Below are positions 1 to 18,213 of a stretch of 64,000 nt of DNA, piece after piece. The DNA comes from an uncultured Oscillospiraceae bacterium (GTDB lineage Bacteria > Bacillota > Clostridia > Oscillospirales > Oscillospiraceae). The position numbers and the translations under genes are program-made. Position 1 is the stretch's first letter. Every line of letters starts with the position of its first letter. The stretch covers positions 62,001 through 126,000 of the forward strand of contig CANQRM010000006.1 of NCBI GenBank assembly GCA_947626265.1, written 5' to 3'. The notes below the pieces were generated by a model. It was not told where the DNA came from. It made no database searches and saw nothing but the letters and a program-made list of their open reading frames with translations.

Positions 1-749
1 GCCAGTTCCAGCATCGTGAACTCCCCGGGATTGCCCAGATTCACCGGGCCCGTTACCTCCCCGGGGGCGGCCATCATCCGGCATATCCCCTCCAGCAGGT
101 CGTCCACATAGCAGAAGCTCCGGGTCTGTTTCCCGTCGCCGTATACCGTGATGGGCTCGCCCCGCAGGGCCTGGTTCACGAAGTTGCTGATGACCCGCCC
201 GTCGTGGGGGTCCATCCCGGGACCGTAGGTGTTGAAGATGCGCGCCACCTTGACCTTCGTCCCGTACCGGCGGTGGTAGTCGAAGCACAGCGTCTCCGCC
301 GCCCGCTTCCCCTCGTCGTAGCAGGCCCGGGGCCCGTCCGGGTCCACGCTGCCCCGGTATGTCTCCGGCTGGGGATGGACCTGGGCGTCGCCATAGACCT
401 CCGAGGTGGAGAACTGCAGCACCGCGGCGTCGTTTTGCCGCGCCAGCTCCAGCATGTTCAGCATCCCGAAGACGCTGGTCTTCAGGGTGTGCACCGGGTC
501 CGTCTGATAGGCAGGCGGGCTGGCCGGGCAGGCCGCGTTGTATATCTGGTCCGCCGCCAGATCGATGGGCTCCACGATATCGTGTTCGATGAACTGAAAA
601 TTGGGCAGGCCCATCAGCTCCCGGATGTTCTCCATCCGGCCTGTCTGGAGGTTATCCAGGCAGATGATATAGTTGTCCGGGTCCTTCGCCAGCCGTTTGC
701 ACAGGTTGGACCCCAGAAAACCCGCGCCGCCGGTCACCAATATCCGCAT
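1..749 (-). CDS. UDP-glucuronate decarboxylase-like NAD-dependent epimerase (partial, C-terminus off window)
   Basis: The gene starts at an ATG at 749 and runs off the left edge, leaving about 249 residues. It is a short-chain dehydrogenase/epimerase with an N-terminal Rossmann motif ([10 protein letters not shown]), a STSEVYGD serine motif and the catalytic YDEGKR tyrosine-lysine pair. YDEGKR in this setting is typical of UDP-glucuronate decarboxylase (UXS), which makes UDP-xylose. Placement 11 bp behind UDP-glucose dehydrogenase fits this: one makes UDP-glucuronate and the next consumes it. It is the most distal visible gene of the capsule operon. A dTDP-glucose 4,6-dehydratase-like activity is the main alternative. 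The family is seen; the exact substrate is inferred. Confidence 0.85.
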
Positions 750-760
750 ATGCTCCGTCC

Positions 761-1987
761 TCAATCTCGCCGGAACAGGTCCCGGGTATAGAGCTTATCC
801 GCCGCCGGCGCCAGCTCCTCCTCATACCGGTTGGCAAGGATCACGTCGCACCCGGCCAGGAAGCGTTCCAGGTCGTTGTTCACCGCATAGCCGTTGAAGC
901 TGGTCTGTCCTGCCAGTGTCGGCTCATAGACGACGATGCTCACGCCCTCGCCGGCCAGGCGTTCCATGACGCCCTGCACGGCGCTGTCCCGGAAGTTGTC
1001 GCTGCCGGACTTCATGATGAGCCGGTACACGCCCGCCACGGGCTTGTCCTTCCCCGCCAGGTGCTTCATCACCTGGGCGGCGATGTGGTCCTTGCGCGCG
1101 TCGTTGGTCTCCACGACGGCCCGGATGAGCCGCTGGGGCATATCCGCGCAGCCGGCCAGCAGCTGCTTCGTGTCCTTGGGGAAGCAGTAGCCCCCGTAGC
1201 CGAAGGAGGGGTTATTGTAGTGGTCCCCGATCCGCCAGTCCATGCACACGCCCTGGATGACCTCCCGGGCGTTCAGGCCGTTCAGCTCCGCGTAGGTATC
1301 CAGCTCGTTAAAAAAGCCCACCCGCATGGCGAGGTAGGCGTTGGCAAACAGCTTTGCCGCCTCCGCCTCCGTGGAGCCCATCACCAGCACGGACACGTCC
1401 CTGTTCAGGGCCGCAGCCTTCAGAAGTTCACCGAACCCCTCCGCGGCCTTCACCATCTCTTCGTCGGCCATATCCGTGCCCACGATGATCCGCCGGGGAT
1501 AGAGGTTGTCGTACAGGCCCTTGCCCTCCCGGAGAAATTCCGGGCTGAACAGGATGTTCCGGCGCCCCGTCTTCTCCCGCAGGCTCTTCGTATAGCCCAC
1601 CGGTACGGTGGACTTGATCACGATGAGCGCCTCTGGGGCATACGCCGCGGCCTTGCGCACCACGTCCTCCACCGCGGAGGTATCGAAGCGCCGGGTCTGC
1701 GGGTCGTAGTTGGTAGGGGCCGCCACGATGACCAGATCGGCCCCCGTATAGGCCTCCCGCTCATCCACCGTCACCGTCAGGTCCAGCTCTTTCTCCGCCA
1801 GAAACCGCTCCAGCTCCGCATCGCGGATGGGCGATCTTTTCCCGGCGTTCACTAGGTCTGCCTTTTCCTGATGCCTGCACACGGCGTATACCTTGTGCTC
1901 CTGGGCCAGCATCACCGCCAGGCTCAGGCCCACATACCCGATGCCCGCCACCGCTATTTTGTTGATGGTCGTCTGTCTCTTCTCCAT
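761..1987 (-). CDS. ugd: UDP-glucose 6-dehydrogenase
   Basis: This 408-aa protein oxidises UDP-glucose to UDP-glucuronate with NAD+. The N-terminus carries the GIGYVG dinucleotide-binding motif near residues 15-20. The middle has the family KSTVPVGYT and FSPEFLREG segments, and the catalytic cysteine sits in GGYCFPKDT near residue 268. An upstream in-frame ATG at 2143 would add 52 residues inside the LCP gene. The ATG at 1987 is preferred because the dehydrogenase fold begins directly there. It lies between the LCP ligase and the UXS-like gene, so it supplies uronic acid or pentose precursors to the surface polysaccharide. Confidence 0.93.
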
Positions 1988-2018
1988 GGTCTCTTTCTGA
2001 AATGCTCCTATTTCCGGC

Positions 2019-3032
2019 TCACCCCGCCGGCAGGTAGAACAGCTCCAGCGCCAGATCCAGGAGCGCGTCCTCATCCGGGTGGAACTCGGTGTATTCTCTG
2101 TGAAGGATCTCCCCCTCCGGCACGATAAAGCCGGCCAGGGCATAGTCCGCCAGGCCCTGGGCGTAGGCGGACAGCTCGTCCACCTTACAGTCCGTCACCA
2201 GATAGTCCGCGATGGCGTCAAATACCGTCAGGACAAAGCCCGGCTCTTCCCTCACGCCGTCCCGCAGGACCTCTGTCAAGCCCTCCATATACGCCCGCTG
2301 CCGGCGCATGCGGGCGGTGTTGGCGTCGTCCGTCATCGTATAGCGGGCGTGGACGAAGTTGAAGGCGTGCTCCCCCATGAGGGTGACCGTCGCGCCCTTT
2401 ATAAGGGTGTCGTCCACGCCGGTGAAGTCGTCCTCCACCGTCACCGTCACGCCGCCCACGGCGTCGTTGAGGGCGGTGACGCCGCCCATGGCGAGGCTGA
2501 CGTAGTTGTCAACGCGCGCCCCGTAGAGGAGCCGGGATACCGCGTCGGCGGTGTTCCGGCAGCGTATCTCCGGGGTGGTCCCGTAGTCATGGGCCAGGCA
2601 TATCTGCTCCAGGGCCGTGCCCGCGGGCCGGTCGTTCCCGTCCAGGATGGTCACCTCGGCCATAGTGTTGCGGTCGATCTGCAGAAGCGTGCATGTCCTG
2701 GCGCCCCGGTCGAATATAGCCAGCACGATAAGGTCCGCCTGACTGGACACGAACGCGCCCTCGTCCTCGTCCGTGGCCATATCGTCCGTGCCCAGGATGA
2801 GGAGCGTGGACAGCTCCTCATTGCGCCGGTACCGCTTGCCGTCTACCGTCATGACATAGGCATCCTCCCCGCCGGAAGCAGCGGCGTCCTCCGTCTGAAT
2901 GGAGCGGGTGCCAGCCCCCTCCGGCGGGGCCTCTATGCGTTTTTCCAGCCGGGAGAGGGCAGCGACGCCCGCTGCGGCCAGCACGGCCACTGCCAGCGCT
3001 GTCAATATGACTTTCAGCGTGGACCGCTTCAT
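2019..3032 (-). CDS. LytR-CpsA-Psr (LCP) family cell-wall polymer ligase
   Basis: The 337-aa protein has a short cytoplasmic start, one membrane segment at about residues 8-27 and an extracellular LCP domain. The LILGTDDM, LLQIDRNTM and RYTMTDDANTARMRRQ segments match the LCP core that binds polyprenyl-pyrophosphate glycopolymers with conserved Arg and Asp residues. LCP enzymes transfer capsule or teichoic acid chains to peptidoglycan on the outer face of the membrane. Here it sits among capsule regulators and sugar-nucleotide enzymes, so attachment of this operon's polymer is the likely job. The start at 3032 was chosen because the upstream in-frame extension overlaps the SPQTG gene in another frame and lacks a signal. 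Confidence 0.9.
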   Translation of the reverse strand: MKRSTLKVILTALAVAVLAAAGVAALSRLEKRIEAPPEGAGTRSIQTEDAAASGGEDAYVMTVDGKRYRRNEELSTLLILGTDDMATDEDEGAFVSSQADLIVLAIFDRGARTCTLLQIDRNTMAEVTILDGNDRPAGTALEQICLAHDYGTTPEIRCRNTADAVSRLLYGARVDNYVSLAMGGVTALNDAVGGVTVTVEDDFTGVDDTLIKGATVTLMGEHAFNFVHARYTMTDDANTARMRRQRAYMEGLTEVLRDGVREEPGFVLTVFDAIADYLVTDCKVDELSAYAQGLADYALAGFIVPEGEILHREYTEFHPDEDALLDLALELFYLPAG

Positions 3033-3042: not shown

Positions 3043-3348
3043 TCACCGGGTCTTTTTGGCGCGGGCGAAAGCGAAGCAGCAGCCGGCGCAGAGGATGGCG
3101 ATCGCCGCGGCCGCGGCCCATCCCGCCCATTCAAAACCCGTCTGGGGAGACGTGGGCGCGATGGAGCCGGAAGCGCCGCCCTCGCCGCCGGGGTTACCGC
3201 CTTCGCCGCCGGGGTTACCACCTTCTCCGCCAGGGCCGTCAACAGCGCCGCCGGGGCCCACACTGGCGCCGTCGCCGGCCGCCAGCACGGGGATGGCCAG
3301 CGCGAACAGCATGGTCAGCACGATCATGATCGCGAGAAATTTCTTCAT
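3043..3348 (-). CDS. small secreted protein with SPQTG sortase signal
   Basis: This 101-aa protein has an N-terminal signal peptide (ending near VLAAG), a glycine-rich middle with three NPGGEGG-like repeats, and a C-terminal sorting signal: SPQTG, a hydrophobic stretch and a basic tail ending AKKTR. That is the layout of a sortase substrate. The SPxTG variant is known for Clostridioides difficile class B sortase, which accepts (S/N)PxTG. The class B-like sortase gene directly upstream is the obvious partner. A GGAGGA ribosome-binding site precedes ATG 3348. The function of the glycine-rich body is unknown; it could be a spacer or a very small wall anchor. The sorting signal is seen; the pairing is inferred. 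Confidence 0.82.
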   Translation of the reverse strand: MKKFLAIMIVLTMLFALAIPVLAAGDGASVGPGGAVDGPGGEGGNPGGEGGNPGGEGGASGSIAPTSPQTGFEWAGWAAAAAIAILCAGCCFAFARAKKTR

Positions 3349-3391: not shown

Positions 3392-4201
3392 TCACGGGAG
3401 CAGCGCCCCCATGACCAGATAGCGCCTGGTCCTGTCCACCTTCAGGCACGTGGACAAAATGATGATCCTGTCGCCGAACGCGGGCCGGGCGTCCCTGTCC
3501 AGCTGGGCGTCCGCGTCGGTGATAGCGTATATGCCGTCAAAGAAAGCGTCGAAGTCCTCTTCATCAGCAAAATCGTGGGCGTACAGGATGTGCTCGTTGG
3601 AATAGGGCACCGCGGCAAATATCCTGTAGTTCCGCTCTTTCTCCGGGGTATAGACGGTGATCGACCGGTGCTCGGCAAAGAACGCGGGGTCGGAAAAATC
3701 GTCCCTGAGAGCGCCGAACATGGTGCCGGAGGCCATGCGGTGGCCGTACAGAACGGTGACGGGGTCTGAAAAGTCAGTGCCGTTGTACGTCTTCTGGGAG
3801 AAGATGGCGCCGTTGGCGGAGTAATTGCCGTCGCTGTCATGGGTCAGGTAGAAGTCGTCGTCGCTCCCATGCTGCACCACCGGATAGTCGACGGGCGTTC
3901 CCTCCACCTGAAGCCAAGCATAGATGTCGCCGTTGACGGCCCGCAGCGCCTCAAAGTCCACGGGGCTTATATAGGGCTCCGGCGTGGGGCTCGGCACGGC
4001 GGTAGGCGCCGCTGTGGCCGTCGGCCCCGGGGAGGGGGTGGGGGTGGGCGCCTGCGTGGGGACGGCCGACGCAACCGGCGCCAAGGCCTGGGACTGCGCC
4101 GGCGGCGTATAGAGGGTCCGGCTGTATATGTATACGCCGCAGCCGATGGCACACAGCAGGAAAAAGCAGCCCAAAACCAGGAACACACGCCGTCTATTCA
4201 T
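3392..4201 (-). CDS. srtB: class B-like sortase
   Basis: The 269-aa transpeptidase has one N-terminal membrane anchor (residues 6-27), a Pro/Thr/Ala-rich linker (about 40-75) and the sortase domain. The catalytic His is in LYGHRM (His154), the Cys in ILSTC (Cys252), and the Arg follows in KVDRTRR. Sortases cleave the sorting signal of exported proteins and join them to the peptidoglycan cross-bridge. The first 8 nt overlap the 3' end of the PHP phosphatase gene, which suggests translational coupling. Position inside a capsule operon, next to a single small SPQTG substrate, is unusual. ATG 4201 is preferred over an in-frame codon further upstream because the membrane anchor starts there. Confidence 0.9.
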   Translation of the reverse strand: MNRRRVFLVLGCFFLLCAIGCGVYIYSRTLYTPPAQSQALAPVASAVPTQAPTPTPSPGPTATAAPTAVPSPTPEPYISPVDFEALRAVNGDIYAWLQVEGTPVDYPVVQHGSDDDFYLTHDSDGNYSANGAIFSQKTYNGTDFSDPVTVLYGHRMASGTMFGALRDDFSDPAFFAEHRSITVYTPEKERNYRIFAAVPYSNEHILYAHDFADEEDFDAFFDGIYAITDADAQLDRDARPAFGDRIIILSTCLKVDRTRRYLVMGALLP

Positions 4202-4910
4202 CGAAACATCCTTCGTCTCCGGCCAGGAGCGCGTCTCCCCCGGCGGCAAACCGCGCCAGGGCGTCCCGCCCCAGTTTTTTCTCTATGCACGCCATGGCCT
4301 GCCCCAGGTCCGGCGGCCGGTCCGTCAGGTCATGGGCGTCCGAGCCCAGAAACTGCACCTGCCCCCGGCGGAGCATCCCCATGGCCCGGTGGGCCGTGCG
4401 GCGGGAGCGGAAGAACGCCCCGTTGCACTGGATGAGCGTGCCCAGGTCGAAAAAGGCCTCCATGGTCCGCCGGGGCTGTATGGCCAGGTACCGCTCGATA
4501 TGGGCCGCCGCCACGCGCAGGCCGTCCCGCTGGAGGCTCTGCACCTCCTGAAGGACCCTGTCGGTCCAGGGCGCGAAGGGCATCTCCAGCAGAAGCAGGT
4601 CCGTCCCCTCCAGGCATAGCCCATCCAGTCCGTCCGCGGCACTCATGCCGCTGAAATACAGCGCCTCGGCCCCCAGCCGCACCCGGGGCAGATCATCTCT
4701 ACCTTCCGTGGCCTCATTGAGCTTTTCATATGCCTCCTGACGCCGGCGTAAAAACCGTGCAATGCTGTTTTCCGCGGCATAGAAGTGGGGCGTGGCTGCC
4801 ACGGTGTCCACACCGCAGGCGGCGCTGCGCTCCAGCATGCCCAGGGAGGTCTCAACGTCCCGGCTTCCGTCGTCCATGCCTGGCAGGACGTGCATGTGGA
4901 AATCCGTCAT
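4194..4910 (-). CDS. cpsB: PHP-family tyrosine-protein phosphatase (CpsB/YwqE type)
   Basis: The 238-aa protein begins with the metal-binding DFHMHVLPGMDDG motif, followed by TPHFY, HIERY and GSDAHDL. These are the PHP-domain histidines and aspartates of the manganese-dependent CpsB/CapC/YwqE phosphatases. Such enzymes remove phosphate from the tyrosine-rich tail of the partner kinase CpsD and so tune capsule chain length. It overlaps the kinase gene by 4 nt and the sortase gene by 8 nt, so the four genes are tightly coupled. The length matches the family. Confidence 0.92.
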   Translation of the reverse strand: MTDFHMHVLPGMDDGSRDVETSLGMLERSAACGVDTVAATPHFYAAENSIARFLRRRQEAYEKLNEATEGRDDLPRVRLGAEALYFSGMSAADGLDGLCLEGTDLLLLEMPFAPWTDRVLQEVQSLQRDGLRVAAAHIERYLAIQPRRTMEAFFDLGTLIQCNGAFFRSRRTAHRAMGMLRRGQVQFLGSDAHDLTDRPPDLGQAMACIEKKLGRDALARFAAGGDALLAGDEGCFDE

Positions 4911-5683
4911 CTTCCGCCGCCATACTGGCCGGAGGCGTAATAGCCCTTCCTGTAGTAGCCTTTTTTGTAGTACTTCCTCTCGCCGGAGGCCGCGCCGTTG
5001 AACACGAAGCCCAGCACATGGGCCTCCGCCAGGCGCAGCTGGCGCATGGTGTCCGCCAGGCCGCCCCGGACCGCGTGGCCCGCCCGGACCACCACGATCA
5101 CGCCGTCCACCAGCCGCGAGGCCACGATGGCGTCCGTGACCGCCGTCACAGGCGGCAGGTCCAGGATGACGAAATCGTACCGCTCCCTGACCTTCTGCAA
5201 AAACGTCCCGGCCCGGACGGAGCCCAGAAGCTCCGAGGGGTTGGGGGGGATATCCCCGGCCACCAGCACGTCGAAGGAGACCTCCCGCTCCCCCGCCGTC
5301 ACCCGATACTGCCGTATGGCATTGGAGGCGTTCTCCGCGCCCACCAGCACGTTGGAAAGGCCGGGCCTCGCCGGGAGAGCCAGCCGGCCCGCCATGCTGG
5401 GCATGCGCATATCCCCCTCGATGAGCAGGATGTCCCGGCCCGTCTCGGCAAAGGTGTAGGCCAGGTTGATGGCCGTGAGGCTCTTGCCCTCGCCGCGGAA
5501 GGAGCTGGTCACGCCCAGGATGTGGGACTCGTTCCCGCCGGGGAAGGAGAACATCACGTTGGTGCGCAGCAGCTTATAGGCCTCCGCCGCCGCGAAGTTC
5601 AGCTTCGGCCCGATCATATAGCGGCGCTCGGCCGTGTACCTGCCGGCGGACGTCGACAGCGCTTTCTTATCGCTCCTGGCCAT
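4907..5683 (-). CDS. cpsD: bacterial tyrosine kinase (CpsD/CapB type)
   Basis: This 258-aa cytoplasmic BY-kinase has a Walker A motif (SSFRGEGKS, about residues 60-68), a Walker A' motif (LLIEGDMRMP, about 86-95) and a Walker B motif (VILDLPP). Its C-terminus is a tyrosine cluster (YYKKGYYRKGYYASGQY) of the kind that is autophosphorylated. In Gram-positive bacteria the kinase works with a separate membrane activator, here the CpsC protein encoded just upstream with a 17-nt overlap. The partner phosphatase follows. An AGGAGG site precedes ATG 5683. Confidence 0.94.
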   Translation of the reverse strand: MARSDKKALSTSAGRYTAERRYMIGPKLNFAAAEAYKLLRTNVMFSFPGGNESHILGVTSSFRGEGKSLTAINLAYTFAETGRDILLIEGDMRMPSMAGRLALPARPGLSNVLVGAENASNAIRQYRVTAGEREVSFDVLVAGDIPPNPSELLGSVRAGTFLQKVRERYDFVILDLPPVTAVTDAIVASRLVDGVIVVVRAGHAVRGGLADTMRQLRLAEAHVLGFVFNGAASGERKYYKKGYYRKGYYASGQYGGGR

Positions 5684-6557
5684 GACCTGCGCCCTCCTTT
5701 TCCTGTTCCTTCATCTGCTCCCGGCCGTGCTCACGCCCGGGCGCCGGTGCGGCCGGCGTCCGGGGCCGGCGGGGCTGTCCGCTCCCGCCGGTGCGCCTGG
5801 GCCGGCCGGCGGACGCGGGACCGCGGGAATAGTAGCTGTCCCCGCCGTCCTCTGCCAGCATATCCGGCACCACCGCCAGCAGCGGGACGTCGGGATAGGT
5901 CTGGGCCAGATAGCCCTCCTCATGGATCTGGTCGTCGAACAGGTACCGCAGGATCACCACGGCCGCCGCGAAGAGAAATCCCGCCAGCGCGCCGATCACG
6001 GTGTTCAGCGTAAAGCTGGGAGATGTCCGCTCCGACGGCACCACCGCGTAGTCCACGATGCGCACGTCGCTGCCGTCCACGATGGACGCGATGCGCTCCG
6101 GCAGCACCTGGGCGATGGTGTTGGCGATGCGCTCCGCCTCATAGGGGTCCGGGCTGGTGACGTTGATGTCGAATATCTCCGTGGAGTTGACCGGCCCGGA
6201 CTCGATCATGTCATAGAGCTCTTCATAGTCGTATTCCAGGTTTTCCCGGGCTATGATGTCCTCCAGGGTGGTGCGGCTCTTGAGGATGACCACATAGGTG
6301 TCCACCAGGCTCTGGGCCGCCGTCAGCTCGGAGGAGGAGATGCTGAAGGACCCGCCCACGGAGATGTTGGAGTTGTTGACGTACATCATGGCCGTAGAGG
6401 TGTACTGGGGGGTGATGAGGAAATAGCTGATGCCAAAGGCGGCCGCCGCCGCCAAAAGCGTGACGGCGATGATCGCCCCGGCCTTGCGCAGCAATATCTG
6501 CCCCAGCTTCAAAAGGTCGATCTCGATCTCATCTGTTTCCGGTCGGTCGTTATACAT
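5667..6557 (-). CDS. cpsC: polysaccharide chain-length determinant / kinase activator (Wzz-CpsC family)
   Basis: The 296-aa membrane protein has two transmembrane segments (about residues 25-48 and 180-200) flanking an extracellular Wzz-type domain. The first segment is followed by the family ITPQYTSTAMMYV region. It sets polymer length and activates CpsD. The C-terminal 90 residues are unusually long, Pro/Arg/Gly-rich and highly charged, more than the short tail usually needed to touch the kinase. It is the first gene of the operon and starts 61 bp from the near end of the invertible segment at 6619-6849, so switching should act on it directly. Confidence 0.9.
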   Translation of the reverse strand: MYNDRPETDEIEIDLLKLGQILLRKAGAIIAVTLLAAAAAFGISYFLITPQYTSTAMMYVNNSNISVGGSFSISSSELTAAQSLVDTYVVILKSRTTLEDIIARENLEYDYEELYDMIESGPVNSTEIFDINVTSPDPYEAERIANTIAQVLPERIASIVDGSDVRIVDYAVVPSERTSPSFTLNTVIGALAGFLFAAAVVILRYLFDDQIHEEGYLAQTYPDVPLLAVVPDMLAEDGGDSYYSRGPASAGRPRRTGGSGQPRRPRTPAAPAPGREHGREQMKEQEKEGAGHGQER

Positions 6558-6618
6558 GTCTTCTCCTGCCTGCCATATCCTTTTCCGGCCCGTTCCGCGT
6601 CACGGGAACGTGGTAATT

Positions 6619-6637
6619 AAAGTAGAGGTTTTGTGAC
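6619..6637 (+). repeat. left inverted repeat (IRL) of the invertible segment
   Basis: This 19-bp copy reads AAAGTAGAGGTTTTGTGAC on the plus strand. Match to the right copy ends abruptly on both sides, as expected for a recombination site rather than a decayed duplication. Confidence 0.9.
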
Positions 6638-6732
6638 ACCCGTTCAGCCATGGAGCCCGTTCGGGCGTAGCAGATACAATAATATCATTTAGAGCTTATC
6701 AGACGCCGGCCAAAAATTCAATAGTTTCTGCT

Positions 6733-6762
6733 TATTTGGTAAGTTTTTTTGCCTATTTGGTA
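6733..6762. repeat. two direct TATTTGGTA repeats, 21 bp apart
   Basis: TATTTGGTA occurs at 6733-6741 and again at 6754-6762, with T7 between. The 21-bp period equals two helical turns, so both copies face the same side of the DNA. This suits a dimeric regulator or an accessory recombination site in the middle of the invertible segment. The repeat is seen; the role is a guess. Confidence 0.55.
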
Positions 6763-6830
6763 TCTGTTCGATGGAAATTATGTAAACTTTCTGCGCGGCG
6801 TTGACCCTCCGCTCTGCCCGAAAATGTCCC

Positions 6831-6849
6831 GTCACAAAACCTCTACTTT
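6831..6849 (-). repeat. right inverted repeat (IRR), overlapping the recombinase stop codon
   Basis: This is the exact inverted copy of 6619-6637. Its bases encode the last residues KVEVL and the TGA stop of the recombinase, so strand exchange here regenerates the same C-terminus in either orientation. Confidence 0.9.
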
Positions 6850-7443
6850 TTGAGCCGGCCGGCGGCGTTCCATCCACCGGATGAAGGTCTGATGGGACAC
6901 GCCCAGGCGCTTTGCCGCGGCCCGGGCTGAGATGGCTCCCGCCGCCCAGGCGGCGCCCATCTCCTCCAGTTCCTCCGGCGGCTCCAGCGGCCGCCGCCCA
7001 AACCGGACGCCCCGGGCCTTTGCCGCCGCGATGCCCTCCGCCTGGCGCTGGCGGATGAACTCCCGCTCCGTCTGGGCCACATAGGACAAAAGCTGCAGGA
7101 CGATGTCCGCGATCAGCGTCCCCGTCAGGTCCTTGTCCCGCCGGGTATCCAGAAGGGGCATGTCCAGCACGACGACGGCCACCCGTCTCTCCTTTGTGAG
7201 TATCCGCCACTGCTCCAATATCTCCTCATAGTTTCTTCCCAGCCGGTCGATGCTCTTGATCACAAGGGTGTCCTCCGGCTTCAGTTTTCGCAGCAGCCGC
7301 CGGTAGGCCGGGCGGTCGAAGTCCTTGCCGGACTGCTTGTCGGCGTAGACGCGCCCGTCCTCCACGCCGAAGCTCTCCATGGCGAGCCGCTGCCGGTCCA
7401 GATTCTGGTCCCGGCTGGATACACGGATATATCCGTATGTCAT
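6832..7443 (-). CDS. small serine recombinase (resolvase/invertase family)
   Basis: The 203-aa protein has the resolvase catalytic domain at the N-terminus: YIRVSS with the nucleophile serine near residue 9, then DRLGRN with the conserved arginines. A long helix rich in Glu and Arg follows, and the C-terminus is a helix-turn-helix (SARAAAKRLGVSHQTFIRW). Length and layout are those of Hin/Gin/Tn3-type enzymes, not the large integrases. The start at 7443 is fixed by an AAGGAGG site 8 nt upstream; in-frame ATGs further upstream lack one. Its 3' end lies in the right inverted repeat, so it most likely inverts the adjacent segment. It is transcribed towards cpsC, so read-through could also reach the capsule genes. 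Confidence 0.92.
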   Translation of the reverse strand: MTYGYIRVSSRDQNLDRQRLAMESFGVEDGRVYADKQSGKDFDRPAYRRLLRKLKPEDTLVIKSIDRLGRNYEEILEQWRILTKERRVAVVVLDMPLLDTRRDKDLTGTLIADIVLQLLSYVAQTEREFIRQRQAEGIAAAKARGVRFGRRPLEPPEELEEMGAAWAAGAISARAAAKRLGVSHQTFIRWMERRRPAQKVEVL

Positions 7444-7509
7444 GTTCGCTTCCTCCTTCATGGCATACAGTATACCCGCCAATCCGCAGGGCCCGCACGG
7501 TGGGCTGAT

Positions 7510-7555
7510 AAAAAAGCCGAGGGAGACGATTTCTTTGCGAAATGTCTCCCTCGGG
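7510..7555 (-). terminator. rho-independent terminator
   Basis: An 11-bp perfect stem (7517-7527 with 7544-7554) is followed on the minus strand by six T. It closes the operon ending in the methyltransferase-STAS gene and insulates the recombinase. Confidence 0.85.
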
Positions 7556-7587
7556 TGCGTCTTTCTTCTTAGCCGGCTCCGGCGCAT

Positions 7588-7620
7588 AAGCAAGAGGCCC
7601 CCCATCCGGGGAGCCTCTTG
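7588..7620. other. stem-loop after the methyltransferase-STAS gene
   Basis: GCAAGAGGC and GCCTCTTGC pair around a C/G-rich centre with one mismatch. There is no T-run on either side, so it is probably an mRNA 3'-end stabiliser placed before the true terminator. Confidence 0.5.
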
Positions 7621-7627
7621 CTGTGTG

Positions 7628-8938
7628 TCAGGGCCGCCAGTCACTCAGGGTCCCGAAGATGATCTGCCCTCCTGTATCACCGCTGCCGCCGGCAACGGCT
7701 TCCACGTCGTCGTCGGACAGCGCGCCATCGGCGGACACGAAGAACTGGCTGAAGCCGGTGTCCTCCAATATGGCGGCAACGGCGGCGTTCACATTCGTGA
7801 GCCGGAAGTGGCCCTCGCCCATCTGCTTATACATGATGAGCATGACCCGCAGGCCCGCGGAGGAGGTGTATTCCAGGTTCTTGAGGTCCAGGGTGATGTC
7901 CTTCACGGCGGTGGGGATGTCCCAGAACGCATTCAAAAGCGCCGGGGCGCTGATGGAGTCCATCCGGCCCGCGAGACGTACGGTGAGCGCGTCCCCGTTC
8001 AGTTCCTGGTCGATGGCGAGCCCGCCGGCCCCCGTTCCGGCGGGCTGGGCAGCCTTCGCGCCGCTGGGGGTCATGATCCACACATTGATCTTCTCCAGGG
8101 CCGCGGCAATGGCCGCTCTCTGTTCCGGCGTGCAGGCGTAGAGGGTCCGCAGGCCCATGTTGGCCACGCCGGTGATGGGCCGTCGCTCCACAGAAAGGCC
8201 CATGCTCTCCAAAAACGTGATCTTCTCCTCGTCACTGGCGAACACGGGCGCGTGGTCCGCGTCGGCGGTCTTCTTGTTCACCTGGGAATTCACCAGCTTC
8301 AGGAACTTTTCCCCCTGGCCGCCGGTGACCGCCTGGATGATGGCGAAGAAGTAGTGGTCGCTCTCAAAGTCCGTGGTGACCCAGCAGCCGCCCCGCTGAG
8401 CCAGAAGCGCGGCGAAATTCTTGACCATGGCGGTCATCTCGTTCTTGTCCAGGTACGCCACCAGCCCCTCGCAGTCGATGGTGACGGGCCCCTCCGGCAG
8501 CTGCGCGGCCGCGGCCGCGACGCTCTCGCCGTTGGTCACGTCCACCGCCCGGAACAGCGCCTTGCCGCCCAGCAGCTCCTTCGACACCCGGGCCATGTCC
8601 TCCACCACCGCGGGCAGGTCGCCGCCCACGTAGTTATAGCCCCGGTCCATCAGGTACTTGGCCTTGGGCGTATAGCCGCAGGCCAGGTCCAGCACGTTCT
8701 TGTTCCCCGCCTGCTCGATGAGCCGGTTGGCCAGGGCATAGCGCAGCTCGATGGTGATGGCGCCGATGCGCTTCAAAAGCTCGTACTCTTTGCCCTTGGC
8801 GTCCACGTGGGGCATCTGCTCAAAGCCCAGCGCCTTCTCAAAGGCGATGGAGTCCTCGTTGCCCACGGCGCTCAAGAGCGTCAGAGTCATCTTCGCGGTG
8901 TTGAACACAGGGTTCGTAAGTTCATAAAGCTCGTTCAT
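7628..8938 (-). CDS. SAM-dependent methyltransferase - STAS fusion with C-terminal double-glycine leader-like tail
   Basis: The 436-aa protein joins three parts. Residues 1 to about 290 look like a class I methyltransferase; VLDLACGYTPKAKYL is the SAM-binding glycine motif. Residues about 305-400 form a STAS domain of the anti-sigma-factor-antagonist type, with LEYTSSAGLRVML containing the serine that RsbW-like kinases phosphorylate. The last 30 residues contain LSDDDVEAVAGG followed by 18 residues, very like the leader of a GG-processed peptide but at the wrong end. It is the last gene of an operon that begins with a MATE-RsbW-like fusion, so the two could form a kinase/antagonist pair. The methylated substrate is unknown. 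Confidence 0.8.
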   Translation of the reverse strand: MNELYELTNPVFNTAKMTLTLLSAVGNEDSIAFEKALGFEQMPHVDAKGKEYELLKRIGAITIELRYALANRLIEQAGNKNVLDLACGYTPKAKYLMDRGYNYVGGDLPAVVEDMARVSKELLGGKALFRAVDVTNGESVAAAAAQLPEGPVTIDCEGLVAYLDKNEMTAMVKNFAALLAQRGGCWVTTDFESDHYFFAIIQAVTGGQGEKFLKLVNSQVNKKTADADHAPVFASDEEKITFLESMGLSVERRPITGVANMGLRTLYACTPEQRAAIAAALEKINVWIMTPSGAKAAQPAGTGAGGLAIDQELNGDALTVRLAGRMDSISAPALLNAFWDIPTAVKDITLDLKNLEYTSSAGLRVMLIMYKQMGEGHFRLTNVNAAVAAILEDTGFSQFFVSADGALSDDDVEAVAGGSGDTGGQIIFGTLSDWRP

Positions 8939-8985
8939 AGGTGGTCTCCTTTCGTTCCTATCCAGATGGTCATTTCACATATTAA

Positions 8986-9213
8986 CTATCGTCTCGCCTG
9001 CCGTACTGTATAGCCTTTTTTCCGGCGATCTTCCATGCAGCTTGGACACAATGAACAGTTCACATCGCCGCACAGACAGTGCTGAACGCTCTTGTCCTGC
9101 CGGAGACAATCAATGCATATCAAATACTGTTCGGTGCTGTCGTCTGTCCCTCCGGACACCGCGCCCAAGGCCTCGTCGGGCAGGGCCTCATAGCTCTTTT
9201 TATTGTTCTCCAC
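8986..9213 (-). CDS. Cys-rich small peptide with double-glycine leader
   Basis: A 75-aa protein starts at GTG 9213, chosen because AAAGGAG lies 7 nt upstream; longer in-frame starts lack a site. Residues 1-22 look like a secretion leader ending LPDEALGAVSGG. The remaining 53 residues hold seven cysteines in CIDC, HCLC, NC, LC and SC pairs plus a basic tail. A GG-cleaved bacteriocin, RiPP precursor or signalling peptide is the leading reading. A small zinc-ribbon protein is the main alternative because of the CxxC spacing. It is flanked by an ATP-grasp ligase and a methyltransferase, both common peptide-modifying classes. A promoter motif at 9241-9266 recurs near another peptide gene. Confidence 0.7.
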   Translation of the reverse strand: MENNKKSYEALPDEALGAVSGGTDDSTEQYLICIDCLRQDKSVQHCLCGDVNCSLCPSCMEDRRKKGYTVRQARR

Positions 9214-9240
9214 GACAGTTCTCCTTTCTGGCTTCTGTCC

Positions 9241-9266
9241 CTTTATACGACCCACCGGGGCAAAAG
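9241..9266 (-). promoter_or_regulatory. two-box promoter motif, copy A
   Basis: On the minus strand it reads CTTTTGCCC, 8 bp, CGTATAAAG, then GGACAG. It is 28 bp upstream of the Cys-rich peptide start. Copies with identical boxes and the same 8-bp gap are at 41240-41265 and 42592-42617. TATAAA may serve as a -10 box, but no TTGACA-like -35 is present, which suggests an activator or alternative sigma factor. Confidence 0.7.
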
Positions 9267-9287
9267 AGCCGGAAAAAACGCTTTTTC

Positions 9288-10226
9288 TCATGCGTCCTCC
9301 CTGCTGTTCCACGCGGACAGCAATATGTCCTCCACCATTTCCTCGTAGGCTATCCCGGAATACTCCGCCGCCCGGGGCATGAGACTCTCCCGCTTCAGCC
9401 CCGGCACCGCGTTGATCTCCAAGGTGTAGATGCGGCTGTCAGCGTGGCTCACCATGAAGTCCACACGGGCCACATCCTTCGCGCCGGTCACTTTGAATAC
9501 CTTCTCCGCTGTCCGCTCCATTTCATGCAGGAGCTTTTCTTCCAGCTTCGGCGGCTCCACGCCGTACTCGCCAGTGAACAGCGTCAGGTCGTTCTTCTTA
9601 TGCACCCGCGCGCCGGACAGCGTCTCCACCCCTTCCACGCACTTGAGGGTGACGAGCCTGCCCTCCTTCTCAAAGAGTCCCACGGTGTAGAACCCGCCGT
9701 CGATAAATTCCTCCAGAAGGATGGGGTCGTCATACTGAAACACATGGGCCATCTTGGGCAGGTCCTCCGGGGAGCGGATGAGCTCGATGCCGAAGCTGCC
9801 GCCCTGGCTGGGCGCCTTCGCCACGAAAGGATAACCCAGCGCGGAATAGTCAAAATCTCCCCGCTCGTATTCCTCCTTCCGCAGGATGGTCCACCGGGGC
9901 GTGGGCACGCCGTAGTGGTCGAAGAGGAATTTGCAGAGTATCTTGTCGTTGATGAGCATGGCCGCGTGGGTCCGGCTGCCGGTATAGGGGATGCCCTCGT
10001 GGTCCAGCATGGCCTGCAGCGTGCCGTCACCGTGGTACTTTCCCTGCACGCAGAGGTAGACGATGTCGGCTTTCTCCTTCCGCAGGGTGTGGACCATGTC
10101 CCGGCCGTATTCCAGCATGCACACGTCGTAGCCCTTCTGCCGCAGGACCTCTTCTATGCTCCTGGCGTTCTTCGTGGAGGCATGCGCCTCGCTGGAGGTC
10201 CCGCCGTATACGATGGCAACTTTCAT
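9288..10226 (-). CDS. D-alanine-D-alanine ligase-like ATP-grasp enzyme
   Basis: The 312-aa protein opens with VAIVYGGTSSEAHAS and continues with IPYTGS, FVAKAPSQGGSFGI, ILLEEFIDG and VDFMVS...YTLEINAVPGL. These are the Ddl-type ATP-grasp landmarks, including the magnesium-binding Glu/Asn. Family members join two amino acids with ATP. It lies between a MATE-RsbW-like transporter and a GG-leader peptide, away from any murein gene. It may therefore be a specialised dipeptide or peptide ligase rather than the cell's main Ddl. The gap to the upstream transporter gene is 37 bp, so co-transcription is likely. Confidence 0.82.
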   Translation of the reverse strand: MKVAIVYGGTSSEAHASTKNARSIEEVLRQKGYDVCMLEYGRDMVHTLRKEKADIVYLCVQGKYHGDGTLQAMLDHEGIPYTGSRTHAAMLINDKILCKFLFDHYGVPTPRWTILRKEEYERGDFDYSALGYPFVAKAPSQGGSFGIELIRSPEDLPKMAHVFQYDDPILLEEFIDGGFYTVGLFEKEGRLVTLKCVEGVETLSGARVHKKNDLTLFTGEYGVEPPKLEEKLLHEMERTAEKVFKVTGAKDVARVDFMVSHADSRIYTLEINAVPGLKRESLMPRAAEYSGIAYEEMVEDILLSAWNSREDA

Positions 10227-10263
10227 ATGTTTATACTCCTTTTCTTTCCGGGGAAGCCCGGTA

Positions 10264-12033
10264 TCAGATGGTGATGAGCAGGTTGTTCATATCCATCGTG
10301 TTGGTATAGGTCACGTCCTTGGACAGGGCCAGCACCATGCGTATGCCCACGTTCTCCTCCGGGCGTTCCGGGTCCAGGGTCCAGGAACGGACCTTTTCCT
10401 TCAGGTCGAACTTGGCGCAGTCGTCCCGCAGCCGCAGCAGCACGTCTCCGTCCCGCAGCACGACCCGGATGTCCACGCTGTGCCGCTTTCCGTCGGCAAA
10501 GCCGTAGGTCACGGTGTTGCCCGCCATCTCCTCCACGCACAGCGCCGCCAGATAGCTTCTCCGCCGGTCCACGCCGTGACCGGTGCAGAAGGCGTTTATC
10601 GCCTCGGAGATGCCGATGACCTGCTCGAGGCCTGTGACGGACACGGATATGTAGTCGCTCTCAGGAAGGCTGAAGCCCCGGGGCAGGAACAGGAGCTTTT
10701 CCGCCCCCTTCGCGTCCGTATCGCGCCGCAGCGCGCCGCACAGGAGGAACACCGCCAGCGTCAGAAGCTGGCTTATGCAATAGGCCGCCCACACGCCGTT
10801 GATGCCGAACAGCTTTCCCAGCACGGCCACGCACGCCACCAGGCTTATGAGCTCGTTGCCGATGTTGATGATATAGGCGCGGCGCCGGTCCCCCAGGGCC
10901 GTCAGGTAATTGCCCACGCACATGTTCACCGCCATGGGCGGCAGGGACAGGGCAAACCAGCGCAGCGCGCTGGCCGCCATCTTTTTGGCCTCCGGCGAGT
11001 CCGGCAGATAGAACGCCGCCAGGGCGGGCGCGAACAGGATCACGGCCCCGGCGATGACGCTCATCAGGCCGACGGCGTACCACAGCGTCACACGCACGGT
11101 CTGCTTCAGGCCGTTCACGTCCTTCTCCCCCGCGTACACGCCGGTCATCAGCATCACCGCCCCGGCCATGCCCACGATGGGGCTGCGGACCACCAGCTTC
11201 ACGTTGCTCTGCGCCGACAGAGCCGACAGCCCCGCCGTGGCGGCCACGGACAGGACGATGCTGTTGATGAGGATGGGCCCCACGGCCCGGCATATCTGGG
11301 TGGCGCCGCTGGGAAGGCCTCCCGCGACGATCTTCGGCGTCAGCCGCCAGTTCATGCCCTTGGCCCGGAAGTGGAAGAGCCTGTCTTTCTTCCTGAAATG
11401 GGTCAGAAGCACCGCCAGGGCCGTATAGTTGCTGACCGCCGTGCCCAGGCCCAGCAGGCCCATCTTCATCACGACCATAAACAGCACGTCGCCGATTATG
11501 TCCACCACCGTGATGGTCAGGCTTGCCACGGTGGTCCGTTTCGCCCCGCCGTCCAGCTGGACGATGGGCGAGAGGATGGCCACCATGATGAAACCCGGCG
11601 TGCCGCTGAACAGGCCTATGAGATAGGCCCTGGCGTAGGGCAGAAGCTCCGCCGAGGCGCCCCGGGCGCCCAGGAGCCGCGCGAAGGGCCCCGCCAGAAT
11701 GATCCCCGCTGCCGTCAGCACACAGGACAGTACCATCCCCAGTGTGCAGCCGAGGGAGAATACCCGGTCCGCCTCGTCCAGCCGGCCGCTTCCCACGCTG
11801 CGGGCGCACATGGTCTGGCAGCTGGTCATCAGCACGCCGCTGATGACGGCGGCAATGCTGTAATAGGGCGTACATATGCCCAGGGCGGCCAGCTCCGCCG
11901 CGCCCAGCAGCCGCCCGGCCATGGCTCCGTCCACCAGGGTCGCCGCGGCATGGGCCAGTTCCATCATGGTCATCACGATCATGGCGCCGAAAAACTGCTT
12001 ATAGATCACAGATGATGTATGGGCTTTTTCCAT
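10264..12033 (-). CDS. MATE-family transporter fused to an RsbW-like ATPase domain
   Basis: The 589-aa protein has a twelve-helix MATE transporter (about residues 1-440) and a cytoplasmic C-terminal domain (about 460-589). That domain matches HATPase_c_2 anti-sigma kinases: an N-box with CVEEMAGNTVTYGF, a nucleotide segment LRLRDDCAKFDL and a G2-like NVGIRMV. MATE pumps export drugs or metabolites in exchange for Na+ or H+, but a fused anti-sigma-type kinase is not part of the classical family. The operon partner carries a STAS domain, the normal substrate of such kinases. A sigma-A-like promoter and tandem repeats lie upstream. Transport substrate unknown. Confidence 0.85.
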   Translation of the reverse strand: MEKAHTSSVIYKQFFGAMIVMTMMELAHAAATLVDGAMAGRLLGAAELAALGICTPYYSIAAVISGVLMTSCQTMCARSVGSGRLDEADRVFSLGCTLGMVLSCVLTAAGIILAGPFARLLGARGASAELLPYARAYLIGLFSGTPGFIMVAILSPIVQLDGGAKRTTVASLTITVVDIIGDVLFMVVMKMGLLGLGTAVSNYTALAVLLTHFRKKDRLFHFRAKGMNWRLTPKIVAGGLPSGATQICRAVGPILINSIVLSVAATAGLSALSAQSNVKLVVRSPIVGMAGAVMLMTGVYAGEKDVNGLKQTVRVTLWYAVGLMSVIAGAVILFAPALAAFYLPDSPEAKKMAASALRWFALSLPPMAVNMCVGNYLTALGDRRRAYIINIGNELISLVACVAVLGKLFGINGVWAAYCISQLLTLAVFLLCGALRRDTDAKGAEKLLFLPRGFSLPESDYISVSVTGLEQVIGISEAINAFCTGHGVDRRRSYLAALCVEEMAGNTVTYGFADGKRHSVDIRVVLRDGDVLLRLRDDCAKFDLKEKVRSWTLDPERPEENVGIRMVLALSKDVTYTNTMDMNNLLITI

Positions 12034-14927: not shown

Positions 14928-16346
14928 ATGGCAGATAAGACGATAGGCGAACTGCCGTCAGCATCGGCGATCTACGACGACTCGCTCCTGGTGATGGAGC
15001 AGCAGGGCGAGGCCCGGAGCGTTTTGGGATCGCTGTTCAGGGGATTCGCGGAGGCGGCAGCAAAGGAGCACGCGGATATCGCCAGGGGGCATATGGACGC
15101 CGCCAGGGCCAGCGCGGCCGTAGCGGCGGAAAGTCTGGCCAGGCTGAACGGCCAGGCGGAGCTTGCCGAAGAAGCAAGGAAAGGCGCAGAGGCGGCCCGG
15201 GAGGCCATTGAGGACATGACCGTGAGCGCGGAGACGCTCCCGTGCTGGAGCGAAGCGACGGCTGTCAAGACGGCAACGGAGAGTTCCTTCAGCATCCACT
15301 TTGGCATCCCGGCCGGCCGGGGATTCACCATTCTTGGCCGGTACGACAGCCGGGAGGAACTGGAGGCCGCCGTGCCCGACCCGGCCGTGGGCGACGCCTA
15401 CCAGGTGGGCGCCGGGGCGCCCTATGACGTGTACATCTACGACGATGTGAACGGCTGGGTAAACAGCGGGCCCATCAACGTGGACCTGCCGGCGCATCTC
15501 ATCGTGGGCGAGGACAGTGATCTGGGAACGGTTCTGTCGCTGAATGCCGATACGTTGGAAGGGCATCCGGCTGGATATTTTGTATCTGATTCGAAAATGA
15601 CGGCAGAACTTGCGAAAAAGCAGGATGTGATCCCGTATTATACGAATCCTAATCTGCTTGATAACTGGTATTTCGTCGGTGGCGGGTCTCAACAAGGTGG
15701 TAGTCAGTTTCCCATCAATTGGAGAGGACAGACGGAGTATACAATATCAAGTTATACGATTGATAGATGGGCAATTAACCAATCGGAAAACATACGGGCT
15801 AAAATAGAGGCTGACGGCATTTTGCTTACAAATAATACCAGCGATCAATATCCACAGTTTTTCGAAATCATAGAGGGGCTTGATACTGATAGGCAATATA
15901 CAGCAAGCGTTCTGTATACTGTCGTATCCGGCGCAGGATCGCTTAGTCTTGGCCAGCATAACGAACCTTGGTTAAGTGAATTCGTGACCCTTTATCCGGA
16001 GGGTGTTGCTTCTGTTACATCCACCGTGGAGGAAGATTTGAGGGGGCAGCATCGAGTATCGATAACTGTCGCTCCTAATTCCTCAATAAAAATAAAGGCC
16101 GTCAAGCTCGAACTTGGCTCCACGCAGACCCTCGCTCACAAAGAAGGCGACGCATGGGTGCTGAACGAGATGCCGAATTACGCTGAAGAGCTGGCGAAGT
16201 GCCAGCGGTATTATCAAGTATTCAAAACCGAGGAAAAGCGTCCTGTAGAGGCGGAGGACTTTAGGCCAGTCATGCGCATAAAGCCAGCGCTGGGCGCTAT
16301 CGAAGTAAGCGGCGTGACATACTACACGGCTGATGCCAATCTATAG
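14928..16346 (+). CDS. phage tail-fibre-like protein 1
   Basis: The 472-aa protein starts after a GGGGGGAG site. Residues 30-90 form an Ala-rich helical stretch, followed by a short beta-type phage fibre segment (about 125-180, GIPAGRGFTILGRYDS). From about residue 235 it carries the module NLLDNWYFVGGGSQQGG, also present in the next gene. A second shared block near residue 400 (KLELGSTQTLAHKEGDAWVLNE, followed by AKCQRYYQV) is typical of tail fibres of clostridial and lactococcal phages. The C-terminal end is likely the receptor-binding part. The gene changes from GC-rich to AT-rich near its middle, which suggests module exchange. Confidence 0.75.
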   Translation: MADKTIGELPSASAIYDDSLLVMEQQGEARSVLGSLFRGFAEAAAKEHADIARGHMDAARASAAVAAESLARLNGQAELAEEARKGAEAAREAIEDMTVSAETLPCWSEATAVKTATESSFSIHFGIPAGRGFTILGRYDSREELEAAVPDPAVGDAYQVGAGAPYDVYIYDDVNGWVNSGPINVDLPAHLIVGEDSDLGTVLSLNADTLEGHPAGYFVSDSKMTAELAKKQDVIPYYTNPNLLDNWYFVGGGSQQGGSQFPINWRGQTEYTISSYTIDRWAINQSENIRAKIEADGILLTNNTSDQYPQFFEIIEGLDTDRQYTASVLYTVVSGAGSLSLGQHNEPWLSEFVTLYPEGVASVTSTVEEDLRGQHRVSITVAPNSSIKIKAVKLELGSTQTLAHKEGDAWVLNEMPNYAEELAKCQRYYQVFKTEEKRPVEAEDFRPVMRIKPALGAIEVSGVTYYTADANL

Positions 16347-16357
16347 GGGGTGACGAC

Positions 16358-17422
16358 ATGCCTGAACAAGCAAAAATTATGACCCTCCATGACCACGACA
16401 CGGGGAAGCCCATTGCACCTCGTACCGTCGTCGAAGCCTTGTCCGGCGAGGGGAAGAAATGGAACTATGTTGGGTTCGCGGAGGATAATGTCGTCGGCGT
16501 TGTAGAGGGGACCTGGCCTTGCAATAGGAACCTGCTAGATAACTGGTATTTCGTTGGTGGTGGGTCTCAGCAGGACGGTGGACAGTTTCCAATAAATCAG
16601 AGGGCCAAAACGAAGTATTCCGATACCGGTTATACAATAGATAGGTGGATCAATACAGTTGACAGCTCGTCCGTATCGGTAAACAGCCAGGATGGGGTGC
16701 TTGAAATAACGAATCCTGGAAATATATCTTTCGGTATTCTTCAGGTTGTAGACATGAAAATACTTGAGCCGATGACTGTGACCTTATCTGTATTGTATAA
16801 AGGCTCTGTGTCTATCGGTTATTGGTCCAGCGGCTATAATCGGACCAACAAGACAAGTAATGAGTGGGACATAGCCGCTTTTACTTACGAAATACCGACA
16901 AGCTACGAGCCCGTCTATCGTGTATACTGTCCGCACATTAGCGCGCAAGAAGGAATGAGCGTACAGATCGCCGCCGCCAAGCTGGAACTCGGCTCCCAGC
17001 AGACCCTGGCCCATAAAGAGGGCGACACGTGGGTGTTGAATGAGATACCGGATTATGGCACGGAATTGGCGAAGTGTCAGAGGTACCAACAGGTTCTTTC
17101 AAAATGGGAAGGATATCCTCAACCGATCGGAACATTTATTACGTTAAATGCAGAGGGCCTTACGCGGTTTCATATACCCCTTCCCGTCCCTCTTCGATGT
17201 CCTCCGGCAATTATTCTGATTGGATCGCTTCGCTTAGAAGCTGTTTTTCCAGATGAAAATTTTATTACTCTTTCTCTCGACAATACTGATGGGATGTCTG
17301 CTGAACTAGGAGTAAACTCAATATCTTTATTGAAACAAATTCCCGGGCTGAAAGCAGGCATGGTTGGGCGTTTCGATGGTAGTTTGAATGCTGGATATAT
17401 TATTTTGGATTCTAACATTTGA
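16358..17422 (+). CDS. phage tail-fibre-like protein 2 (paralogue)
   Basis: The 354-aa protein repeats the two blocks of its neighbour: NLLDNWYFVGGGSQQ near residue 58 and KLELGSQQTLAHKEGD near residue 210, each followed by the same WVLNE...AKCQRY pattern. The N-terminus (LHDHDTGKPIAPRT) and the C-terminal 100 residues are different. The two genes look like a tandem duplication whose ends have been swapped, as expected for variable receptor-binding proteins. Much of the gene is AT-rich compared with the chromosome. Confidence 0.72.
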   Translation: MPEQAKIMTLHDHDTGKPIAPRTVVEALSGEGKKWNYVGFAEDNVVGVVEGTWPCNRNLLDNWYFVGGGSQQDGGQFPINQRAKTKYSDTGYTIDRWINTVDSSSVSVNSQDGVLEITNPGNISFGILQVVDMKILEPMTVTLSVLYKGSVSIGYWSSGYNRTNKTSNEWDIAAFTYEIPTSYEPVYRVYCPHISAQEGMSVQIAAAKLELGSQQTLAHKEGDTWVLNEIPDYGTELAKCQRYQQVLSKWEGYPQPIGTFITLNAEGLTRFHIPLPVPLRCPPAIILIGSLRLEAVFPDENFITLSLDNTDGMSAELGVNSISLLKQIPGLKAGMVGRFDGSLNAGYIILDSNI

Positions 17423-17440
17423 GGCTGAGGTGACAATTAT

Positions 17441-17794
17441 ATGACTGAATTTATGTTTTATAACAAGCATTACATAACCGTGGACGAGCAAAACCGTGTC
17501 ATTGACGGCTGGTCGGACGGGCCGCTGCGGGACAAGCCTACAGAGGGTGCCGTCTGCATCAACAATAAGGGACGATACCAGTTCCAGCTGTTCCCGGGCG
17601 GAGAGGAAAACCCGCCCCTGCGGACCATGGACGGGATACCGCTGTACAAGTGGGACGGTGAGACTGTACATAAGCGGAGCGAGGAGGATATCGAAGCCGA
17701 CCGGGCGCTGATACCGCCCCCTCCGCCCAGTGAGATGGAGAAACTCAGAGCCGACGTGGACTATATTGCTGTGATGGGAGGTGTCGACCTGTGA
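17441..17794 (+). CDS. phage-associated protein upstream of XkdX
   Basis: This 117-aa protein of unknown function has a beta-rich start (YNKHYITVDEQNRVIDGWSDG) and a Pro-rich region near residues 95-101. Proteins like this commonly sit between tail fibres and XkdX in phages of Firmicutes. It overlaps the XkdX start codon by 4 nt, so the two are translationally coupled. Confidence 0.65.
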   Translation: MTEFMFYNKHYITVDEQNRVIDGWSDGPLRDKPTEGAVCINNKGRYQFQLFPGGEENPPLRTMDGIPLYKWDGETVHKRSEEDIEADRALIPPPPPSEMEKLRADVDYIAVMGGVDL

Positions 17795-18191: not shown

Positions 18192-18213
18192 TATTTTTAT
18201 GGAGGTACATAGC

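Follow-up and report, generated by a model that had tools for sequence, protein, structure and literature searches.

Genes and repeats of the locus

The left part of the window, as the whole analysed stretch of 64,000 nt is called here, carries co-directional genes that run from cpsC (6557) leftwards to about position 52669 of the contig (C6:52669), roughly 16 kb in all, and that would presumably be read as one transcript (Table 1). CpsB, CpsC, CpsD, a priming sugar transferase and Wzy, the components by which a Wzy-type capsule/EPS operon is recognised, were all found; no Wzx flippase was identified in the operon. We take the cpsB product to be a tyrosine phosphatase from what is known of its family. 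The sulfotransferase-like protein scored just under its cut-off. Apart from the cpsC gene of the window, no cpsC relative was detected in the assembly.

Table 1. Features of the locus in window coordinates, with the genes of the operon that lie beyond the window in the last line
Feature	Position	Strand	Basis or detail
NAD-dependent sugar-nucleotide epimerase/decarboxylase	1..764	-	named from sequence alone
UDP-glucose 6-dehydrogenase-like nucleotide sugar dehydrogenase	761..2143	-	family searches; start uncertain
LytR-CpsA-Psr (LCP) family glycopolymer transferase	2019..2945	-	PF03816; start uncertain
101-aa Gly-rich protein	3043..3348	-	SPQTG-like motif, membrane span, basic tail (read from sequence)
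Sortase, class-B-like	3392..4249	-	PF04203 met; TIGR03064 136.3 bits, below cut-off 153.75
cpsB, CpsB/CapC family	4194..4910	-	PF19567
cpsD, tyrosine autokinase	4907..5683	-	TIGR01007 158.2 bits, cut-off 108.05
cpsC, chain-length determinant / kinase adaptor (Wzz)	5667..6557	-	PF02706 Wzz, PF13807 GNVR; TIGR01006 143.6 bits, below cut-off 296
Left recombination site (predicted), operon side	6612..6637	-	26 bp, of which 19 bp (6619-6637) are common to the right site
Invertible segment (proposed)	6638..6830	none	193 bp between arms; flipped relatives
Predicted promoter toward cpsC	6693..6721	-	-35 TTGAAT 6721-6716, 17-nt spacer, -10 TAAGCT 6698-6693, TG extended -10; score 9.9
Two 17-bp direct repeats	6725..6762	-	21-bp spacing, directly upstream of -35; 88% alike
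Right recombination site (predicted)	6831..6856	+	26 bp, overlaps recombinase 3' end and stop codon
Small serine recombinase, 203 aa, proposed dedicated invertase	6832..7443	-	PF00239 108.7 bits, cut-off 23.3
Operon beyond the window	to ~C6:52669		Bac_transf (priming sugar transferase), DUF4422, LicD, GLF (UDP-galactopyranose mutase), GT2, GT1, GT2, Wzy_C, sulfotransferase-like

The 101-aa Gly-rich protein (3043-3348) had no Pfam or NCBIfam match, and from its sequence it is possibly a substrate of the sortase. Both genes lie inside the operon, and their products would be phase-variable together.

The recombinase has an intact open reading frame and carries the Resolvase N-terminal catalytic domain. 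Two C-terminal helix-turn-helix models scored below their cut-offs, HTH_50 with 24.4 bits (cut-off 27) and HTH_23 with 19.8 bits (cut-off 24.6). The nearest relatives of solved structure were Sin/Tn552 bin3, a DNA invertase and gamma-delta resolvase; the alignment with Sin covered residues 1-157, and RVSS and SIDRLGRNY were common to both proteins. The top NCBIfam model was that of the invertase Mpi (NF009949). The recombinase was not assigned to the Mpi family of master invertases because its 62.6 bits are far under the curated equivalog cut-off of 272. Master invertases of this kind have many target sites in the genome, whereas two local copies of the repeat were found here at up to 3 mismatches. 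Adjoining the recombinase is a protein with a C-terminal STAS domain, the first of a group (7628-12033). It is followed by an ATP-grasp ligase-like protein and by a MATE-like transporter that has a kinase-like tail, both of which were named from their sequence only. A phage-like gene run with fibre-like, holin-like and endolysin-like genes was read from the open reading frames at 14928-19177.

The DNA between cpsC and the recombinase is non-coding and is bracketed by a perfect inverted repeat of 19 bp, with arms at 6619-6637 and 6831-6849 spaced 193 nt apart. The repeat had been described in an earlier note on this DNA, and its coordinates and the shuffles described here agree with that description. 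A chance origin was ruled out: 100 dinucleotide-preserving shuffles of the window gave 0 matches at up to 3 mismatches, and the 3.2-Mb assembly contained none at this limit beyond the two local arms, a search that more divergent sites could escape. By the same search the recombinase has no second genomic target at up to 3 mismatches in the assembly. When the 19-mer was searched as a pattern in 300 family genomes at up to 2 mismatches, 3 of the 300 matched, one being the genome of the window itself; the other two gave single two-mismatch matches, which were treated as chance. The GC content of the segment is 45%, compared with 63% for the window, and about 2% of 193-nt stretches sampled every 10 nt were as GC-poor. 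The segment had also been called AT-rich, which holds only by comparison with its surroundings. The stop codon of the recombinase (TGA, 6832-6834) was confirmed to fall within the right arm. Since this part of the repeat is common to both sites, the recombinase protein would be identical in both states of the segment.

The functional sites are better described, as far as their sequence allows, as elements of 26 bp (6612-6637 and 6831-6856) that have the 19 bp in common. These were obtained by centring the repeat on its core. They centre on CT/AG and resemble the sites of relatives of the recombinase. Among left-site 26-mers of 31 relatives, chosen by the core pattern AAGTA[G/C]A or similar, 20 start with GG and 28 end with CC or AC. 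The right site is palindromic at 16 of 26 positions and the left site at 10 of 26, with a degenerate outer half. The inner edge of the repeat coincides with the exact edge of the 26-bp site, as would be expected if inversion swaps the inner half-sites.

Predicted promoter and orientation of the segment

A promoter reading toward cpsC was predicted in the segment, and the two direct repeats behind it may be activator sites that move with the promoter. The predicted -10 (TAAGCT) is poor by consensus, and a scan for consensus sigma-70 promoters over 6400-7700 found no site. From its sequence the promoter is thus a weak one, possibly dependent on an activator, and this step of the argument rests on homology and position. 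The consensus scan was superseded by a looser promoter score with a shuffle control; score and cut-off (12) were fixed after about a dozen segments had been read. The same promoter elements, the 17-bp repeats included, are kept at L005, a locus from the metagenome bin Lapin-018 (rabbit, by its name). The leader from the left repeat to cpsC (61 bp, 57% GC) has no obvious promoter by eye. As assembled, the window has the promoter directed toward cpsC, which is the ON orientation.

The orientation of the segment was compared among relatives. At L005 both 19-bp arms are unchanged, the segment is about 90% identical and the orientation is that of the window. The other orientation was found in the closely related genome G326, in which the cpsC region of contig C38 is 94% identical to the window at the DNA level. 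The 58 bp abutting the repeat before this cpsC matched the flipped L005 segment with a score of 47, which 0 of 10,000 shuffles reached, as against 19 for the unflipped segment, a chance-level score reached by 4999 of 10,000 shuffles. With the segment of the window the scores were 35 flipped (1 of 5000 shuffles) and 20 unflipped (1834 of 5000 shuffles). The flipped piece is these 58 bp only, at a contig end, and the sequence stops before any adjoining recombinase. The far end of C38 carries another locus (L145, G326:C38:1-4000) with a recombinase copy that is 97% identical over residues 1-151 and changed at its 3' end; it is followed by what reads as insertion-sequence-like DNA, in a gene order unlike that of the window.

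A second case was found in another species (G315), where a homologous segment lies in the opposite orientation before the gene of a giant surface protein (L173). Aligned with the segment of the window, it scored 55 flipped and 35 unflipped, the null maximum being 45 in 1000, and in this flipped alignment the predicted promoter of the window falls opposite the stronger L173 promoter. L173 was the only one of 12 segments besides L005 whose flipped alignment to the window segment beat the null; the other 11 stayed below the null maxima in both senses. Both orientations therefore exist across related genomes, many of them metagenome bins, as seen in the assemblies of G326 versus the window and L005, and of L173 versus the window. 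Orthologous switches before STAS/APH genes (L153, L148, L161 and L162) were considered as further flip pairs and rejected, being alike in orientation by eye.

The possibility was considered that the switch is decayed or locked, with an inactive recombinase or inactive sites and the locus fixed ON. The shared orientation of L005 and the degenerate outer half of the left site would fit such a state. However, neither the window nor L005 has lost any of the 19-bp arms despite the diverged segment, the recombinase reading frame is intact, and G326 has the other orientation, so a locked switch appears unlikely.

The contig ends of the surveyed loci were also examined. Contigs end within 150 bp on the 3' side of the related recombinases at 8 of 112 loci and on the 5' side at 0 of 112; of the eight 3' ends, three fall within the recombinase gene itself. 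Loci broken in this way on the 5' side would have been removed by the filter, and the comparison without the three is 5 versus 0. The corresponding 3' and 5' numbers were 12 versus 1 at 300 bp and 13 versus 4 at 500 bp. The contigs of L006, L031 and L154 end inside site-like sequence, and that of L147 ends 2 bp beyond its site. Such breaks 3' of the recombinases may be caused by mixed orientations in the sequenced material.

It is highly likely, as judged from sequence, that the locus has its own dedicated invertible-promoter switch, in which the recombinase flips the 193-bp segment and so turns the cpsC operon ON or OFF. The recombinase beside the repeat, presumably the acting enzyme, would bind and cut the sites 6612-6637 and 6831-6856 and invert the 193 bp between them. 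In the assembled orientation the promoter with its two activator-type repeats would read across the left site into cpsC, transcription starting at the predicted promoter, and would drive cpsC, cpsD and cpsB, the sortase, the LCP transferase, the precursor genes, the glycosyltransferases and Wzy. After inversion it would read away from the operon and antisense across the recombinase gene, leaving the operon OFF. Both states would be expected to coexist in one population, with capsule output changing as the segment inverts.

Upstream DNA was compared for 13 further cpsC loci in the genus, 12 of them with at least 500 bp; it held no recombinase in the stretch examined and gave a best repeat score of 11, and weak or partial cpsC matches were left out of this comparison. 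The other cpsC loci of G326 were likewise dismissed as additional switched capsules, since their upstream DNA lacked a recombinase and its repeat scores did not exceed 11. Judging by these loci, the switch seems to have been acquired by this operon in the lineage that comprises the window, L005 and G326.

Survey of recombinase relatives

Relatives of the recombinase were sought in genome contigs, from which the best 80 of 581 were taken; 32 of 35 genus genomes had a match at E<=0.001, a few of them weak. The survey comprised 112 loci after removal of matches that started after query residue 30, had less than 55% identity, had E above 1e-20 or were duplicates. The 104 loci with at least 150 bp of 3' DNA were searched for repeats, the 8 shorter ones being left out. 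A repeat pair scoring 14 or more was present 3' of the recombinase at 31 of 104 loci, in 5' DNA at 1 of 107 and in 8 of 600 random placements; at these control rates one or two of the 31 loci may be due to chance. With a score of 12 or more the numbers were 43 of 104, 2 of 107 and 23 of 600. In an earlier 5' control with looser limits a score of 16 was reached once.

A promoter score of at least 12 was obtained for 21 of the 31 segments with confident repeats, as against 2.3% of 3100 shuffles. The promoter pointed toward the recombinase (OFF) in 18 of these 21 and toward the downstream gene in 3. The 10 loci without a promoter reaching 12 include the window and L005. When the repeat cut-off was lowered to 12 (43 loci), the promoter was directed toward the recombinase at 26 loci and toward the gene at 3, and 14 had none. 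The claim of an invertible promoter before the CpsBCD operon thus gained support from the flipped end in G326, the opposite orientation of L173 and the strong promoter of these 21 loci. That the flipped state would read antisense into the recombinase, as the earlier note proposed, follows from the geometry and corresponds to the common assembled state of the relatives (18 of 21).

Inversion can also act through a leader or terminator, as at cwpV of C. difficile. The segment of the window could invert without carrying the main cpsC promoter; transcription of the operon would then come from the recombinase or from more distant upstream DNA, and inversion would alter a leader or terminator. The weak promoter of the window would agree with this, as would a small GC-rich hairpin read inside the segment and the co-directional arrangement of recombinase and cpsC, which makes read-through possible. 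However, no terminator-like site was called in a scan of the segment, 21 of the 31 confident-repeat loci have a strong directional promoter there, and the promoter of the window lies opposite that of L173 in the alignment. We regard control through a leader or terminator as improbable.

A resolvase or mobile-element recombinase that merely binds the repeat pair, with a fixed, regulatory segment that does not invert naturally, would be consistent with the presence of Sin and gamma-delta resolvase among the nearest solved relatives. It would also be consistent with the plasmid records holding recombinase relatives, at least 5000 in number, of which 4999 of the 5000 listed are below 60% identity. 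This explanation is opposed by the flipped segments in two related genomes, by sites that are inverted and not direct, by the nature of both flanking genes searched (cpsC and the STAS protein), neither of which is a mobile-element gene, and by the recurrence of the same layout ahead of unrelated genes, and is considered very unlikely. Identity to the recombinase was 69% at best in the phage collection and 62% at best among the matches listed from the plasmid collection.

From these sequence comparisons, a Gram-positive capsule/EPS operon very probably has a genuine invertible promoter at this locus, one that belongs to a portable family of serine-invertase switches in Clostridia. The position of the left site relative to the recombinase frame was determined for 46 loci, chosen for 3' DNA of 200 bp or more, a repeat score of 10 or higher and a left arm containing GTA or TAC. 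It lies inside the frame at 9, overlaps the stop codon at 8, the window included, and lies beyond it at 29. At the 9 loci with the site inside the frame, inversion would also rewrite the C-terminal tail of the recombinase.

The genes downstream of the switches were examined by Pfam searches with 28 proteins from 25 of the 43 loci, some of them encoded by the second gene after the repeat. Surface or secreted proteins recur, with isopeptide/prealbumin-fold proteins at L173, L178 and L057, S-layer-homology proteins at L016, L023 and L082, other secreted-looking repeat proteins at L050, L055 and L056, and flagellin at L080. Helicases were found at L074, where a priming sugar transferase follows, and at L011 and L137; a HerA-like ATPase at L043; a DNA methylase and an Eco57I-type protein at L084 and L015; and peptide-synthetase-like enzymes at L051 and L164. 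A symporter (L159), a conjugation coupling protein (L158) and, in the genome of the window itself, a STAS/phosphotransferase protein (L153) were also found. Three of the 28 proteins had no Pfam match (L081, L140 and L035), and for three others, L083 and the AP2-like proteins of L016 and L178, the only match fell under the curated cut-off. These downstream genes may all be controlled by inversion. Small proteins with the weak AP2 match are encoded by the first gene after the switch at L016:5808-6482 and L178:5854-6348, and similar starts are seen at L035 and L007.

A broader reading, which is offered tentatively and to which we give somewhat less than an even chance, is that these loci belong to a large family of portable cassettes in Clostridia, each with one enzyme, one switch and a site in or just past the 3' end of the recombinase gene; in some members inversion would also rewrite the C-terminal tail. 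In the OFF state a strong antisense promoter would fire over the recombinase gene as a latch, lowering recombinase output and biasing the switch to OFF; the basis for such a bias is the OFF assembly of 18 of the 21 strong-promoter loci. The cassette would have been placed before varied genes, namely capsule operons and genes for giant surface proteins, flagellin, restriction-modification, peptide synthetases and conjugation. As the survey suggests, a single type of cassette may govern many genes of surface and defence-related function among poorly cultured gut bacteria, and this would have consequences for their encounters with host immunity and phages. The antisense geometry offers a possible explanation, open to direct testing, of the prevalence of OFF among the assembled copies.

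Relation to known switches

Hin, Gin and Cin are small serine recombinases that act on 26-bp sites with a central dinucleotide. The recombinase of the window is likewise small and of the serine type, and the anatomy of its predicted 26-bp sites, with their CT/AG centre as the putative point of cleavage, would fit such a layout. It differs from Hin in lying outside its segment, with one site overlapping its stop codon, whereas the hin gene is inside its own invertible segment according to PMC5903667.

In the same paper, Mpi of Bacteroides fragilis is a serine recombinase that inverts segments at capsule polysaccharide loci, and it is exceptional as a single master enzyme that serves thirteen or more regions across the genome. 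The switch described here is alike in placing a serine recombinase at a capsule locus. However, it has one enzyme and one pair of sites, the repeat having no further copy in the assembly within 3 mismatches, and it belongs to a Gram-positive CpsBCD/Wzy operon and a recombinase far below the Mpi cut-off.

Invertible control of surface genes in Clostridia is known from the RecV switches of Clostridioides difficile (cwpV and flagella), as described in PMC5903667 and PMC2784873. The locus would share this kind of control but differs in the enzyme, RecV being a tyrosine recombinase (PMC5903667). Invertons of Clostridia in a defined gut community include elements near invertases and surface genes. 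In that study, inverton group 139, in which Clostridia predominate, is associated with recombinases of the tyrosine type, and 'serine' is not found as a word in the main text (PMC11892184). Akkermansia muciniphila has a phase-variable capsule that depends on an invertible element, the cps1 inverton, as was shown experimentally (PMC13343947, main text). It differs from the present locus in belonging to Verrucomicrobiota and in its repeat motif, and neither 'recombinase' nor 'serine' appears in the main text of the paper. Among inversion-positive Firmicutes species 14 of 15 were Clostridia, and recombinases are reported to be usually close to their switch (PMC5903667).

No report of a serine-invertase switch on a Clostridia capsule operon was recognised in a literature search that mostly did not extend to subscription papers. 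Capsule phase variation driven by inversion is already known from gut Bacteroides and, recently, from Akkermansia. If a CpsBCD-type operon has a dedicated serine-invertase switch, Gram-positive gut Clostridia would join this list, and the enzyme family and the 26-bp site to look for would be named.

Two further relatives of the recombinase are present in the genome of the window itself. One belongs to a second switch of the same kind on contig C42 (G000:C42, L153:5753-7183 and upstream DNA), with the promoter toward the recombinase; it precedes the gene of a protein with STAS and APH domains, and similar loci occur in three other genus genomes. The other, about 60% identical, lies on contig C63 (G000:C63, L154), which ends 34 bp past the stop codon, in site-like sequence.
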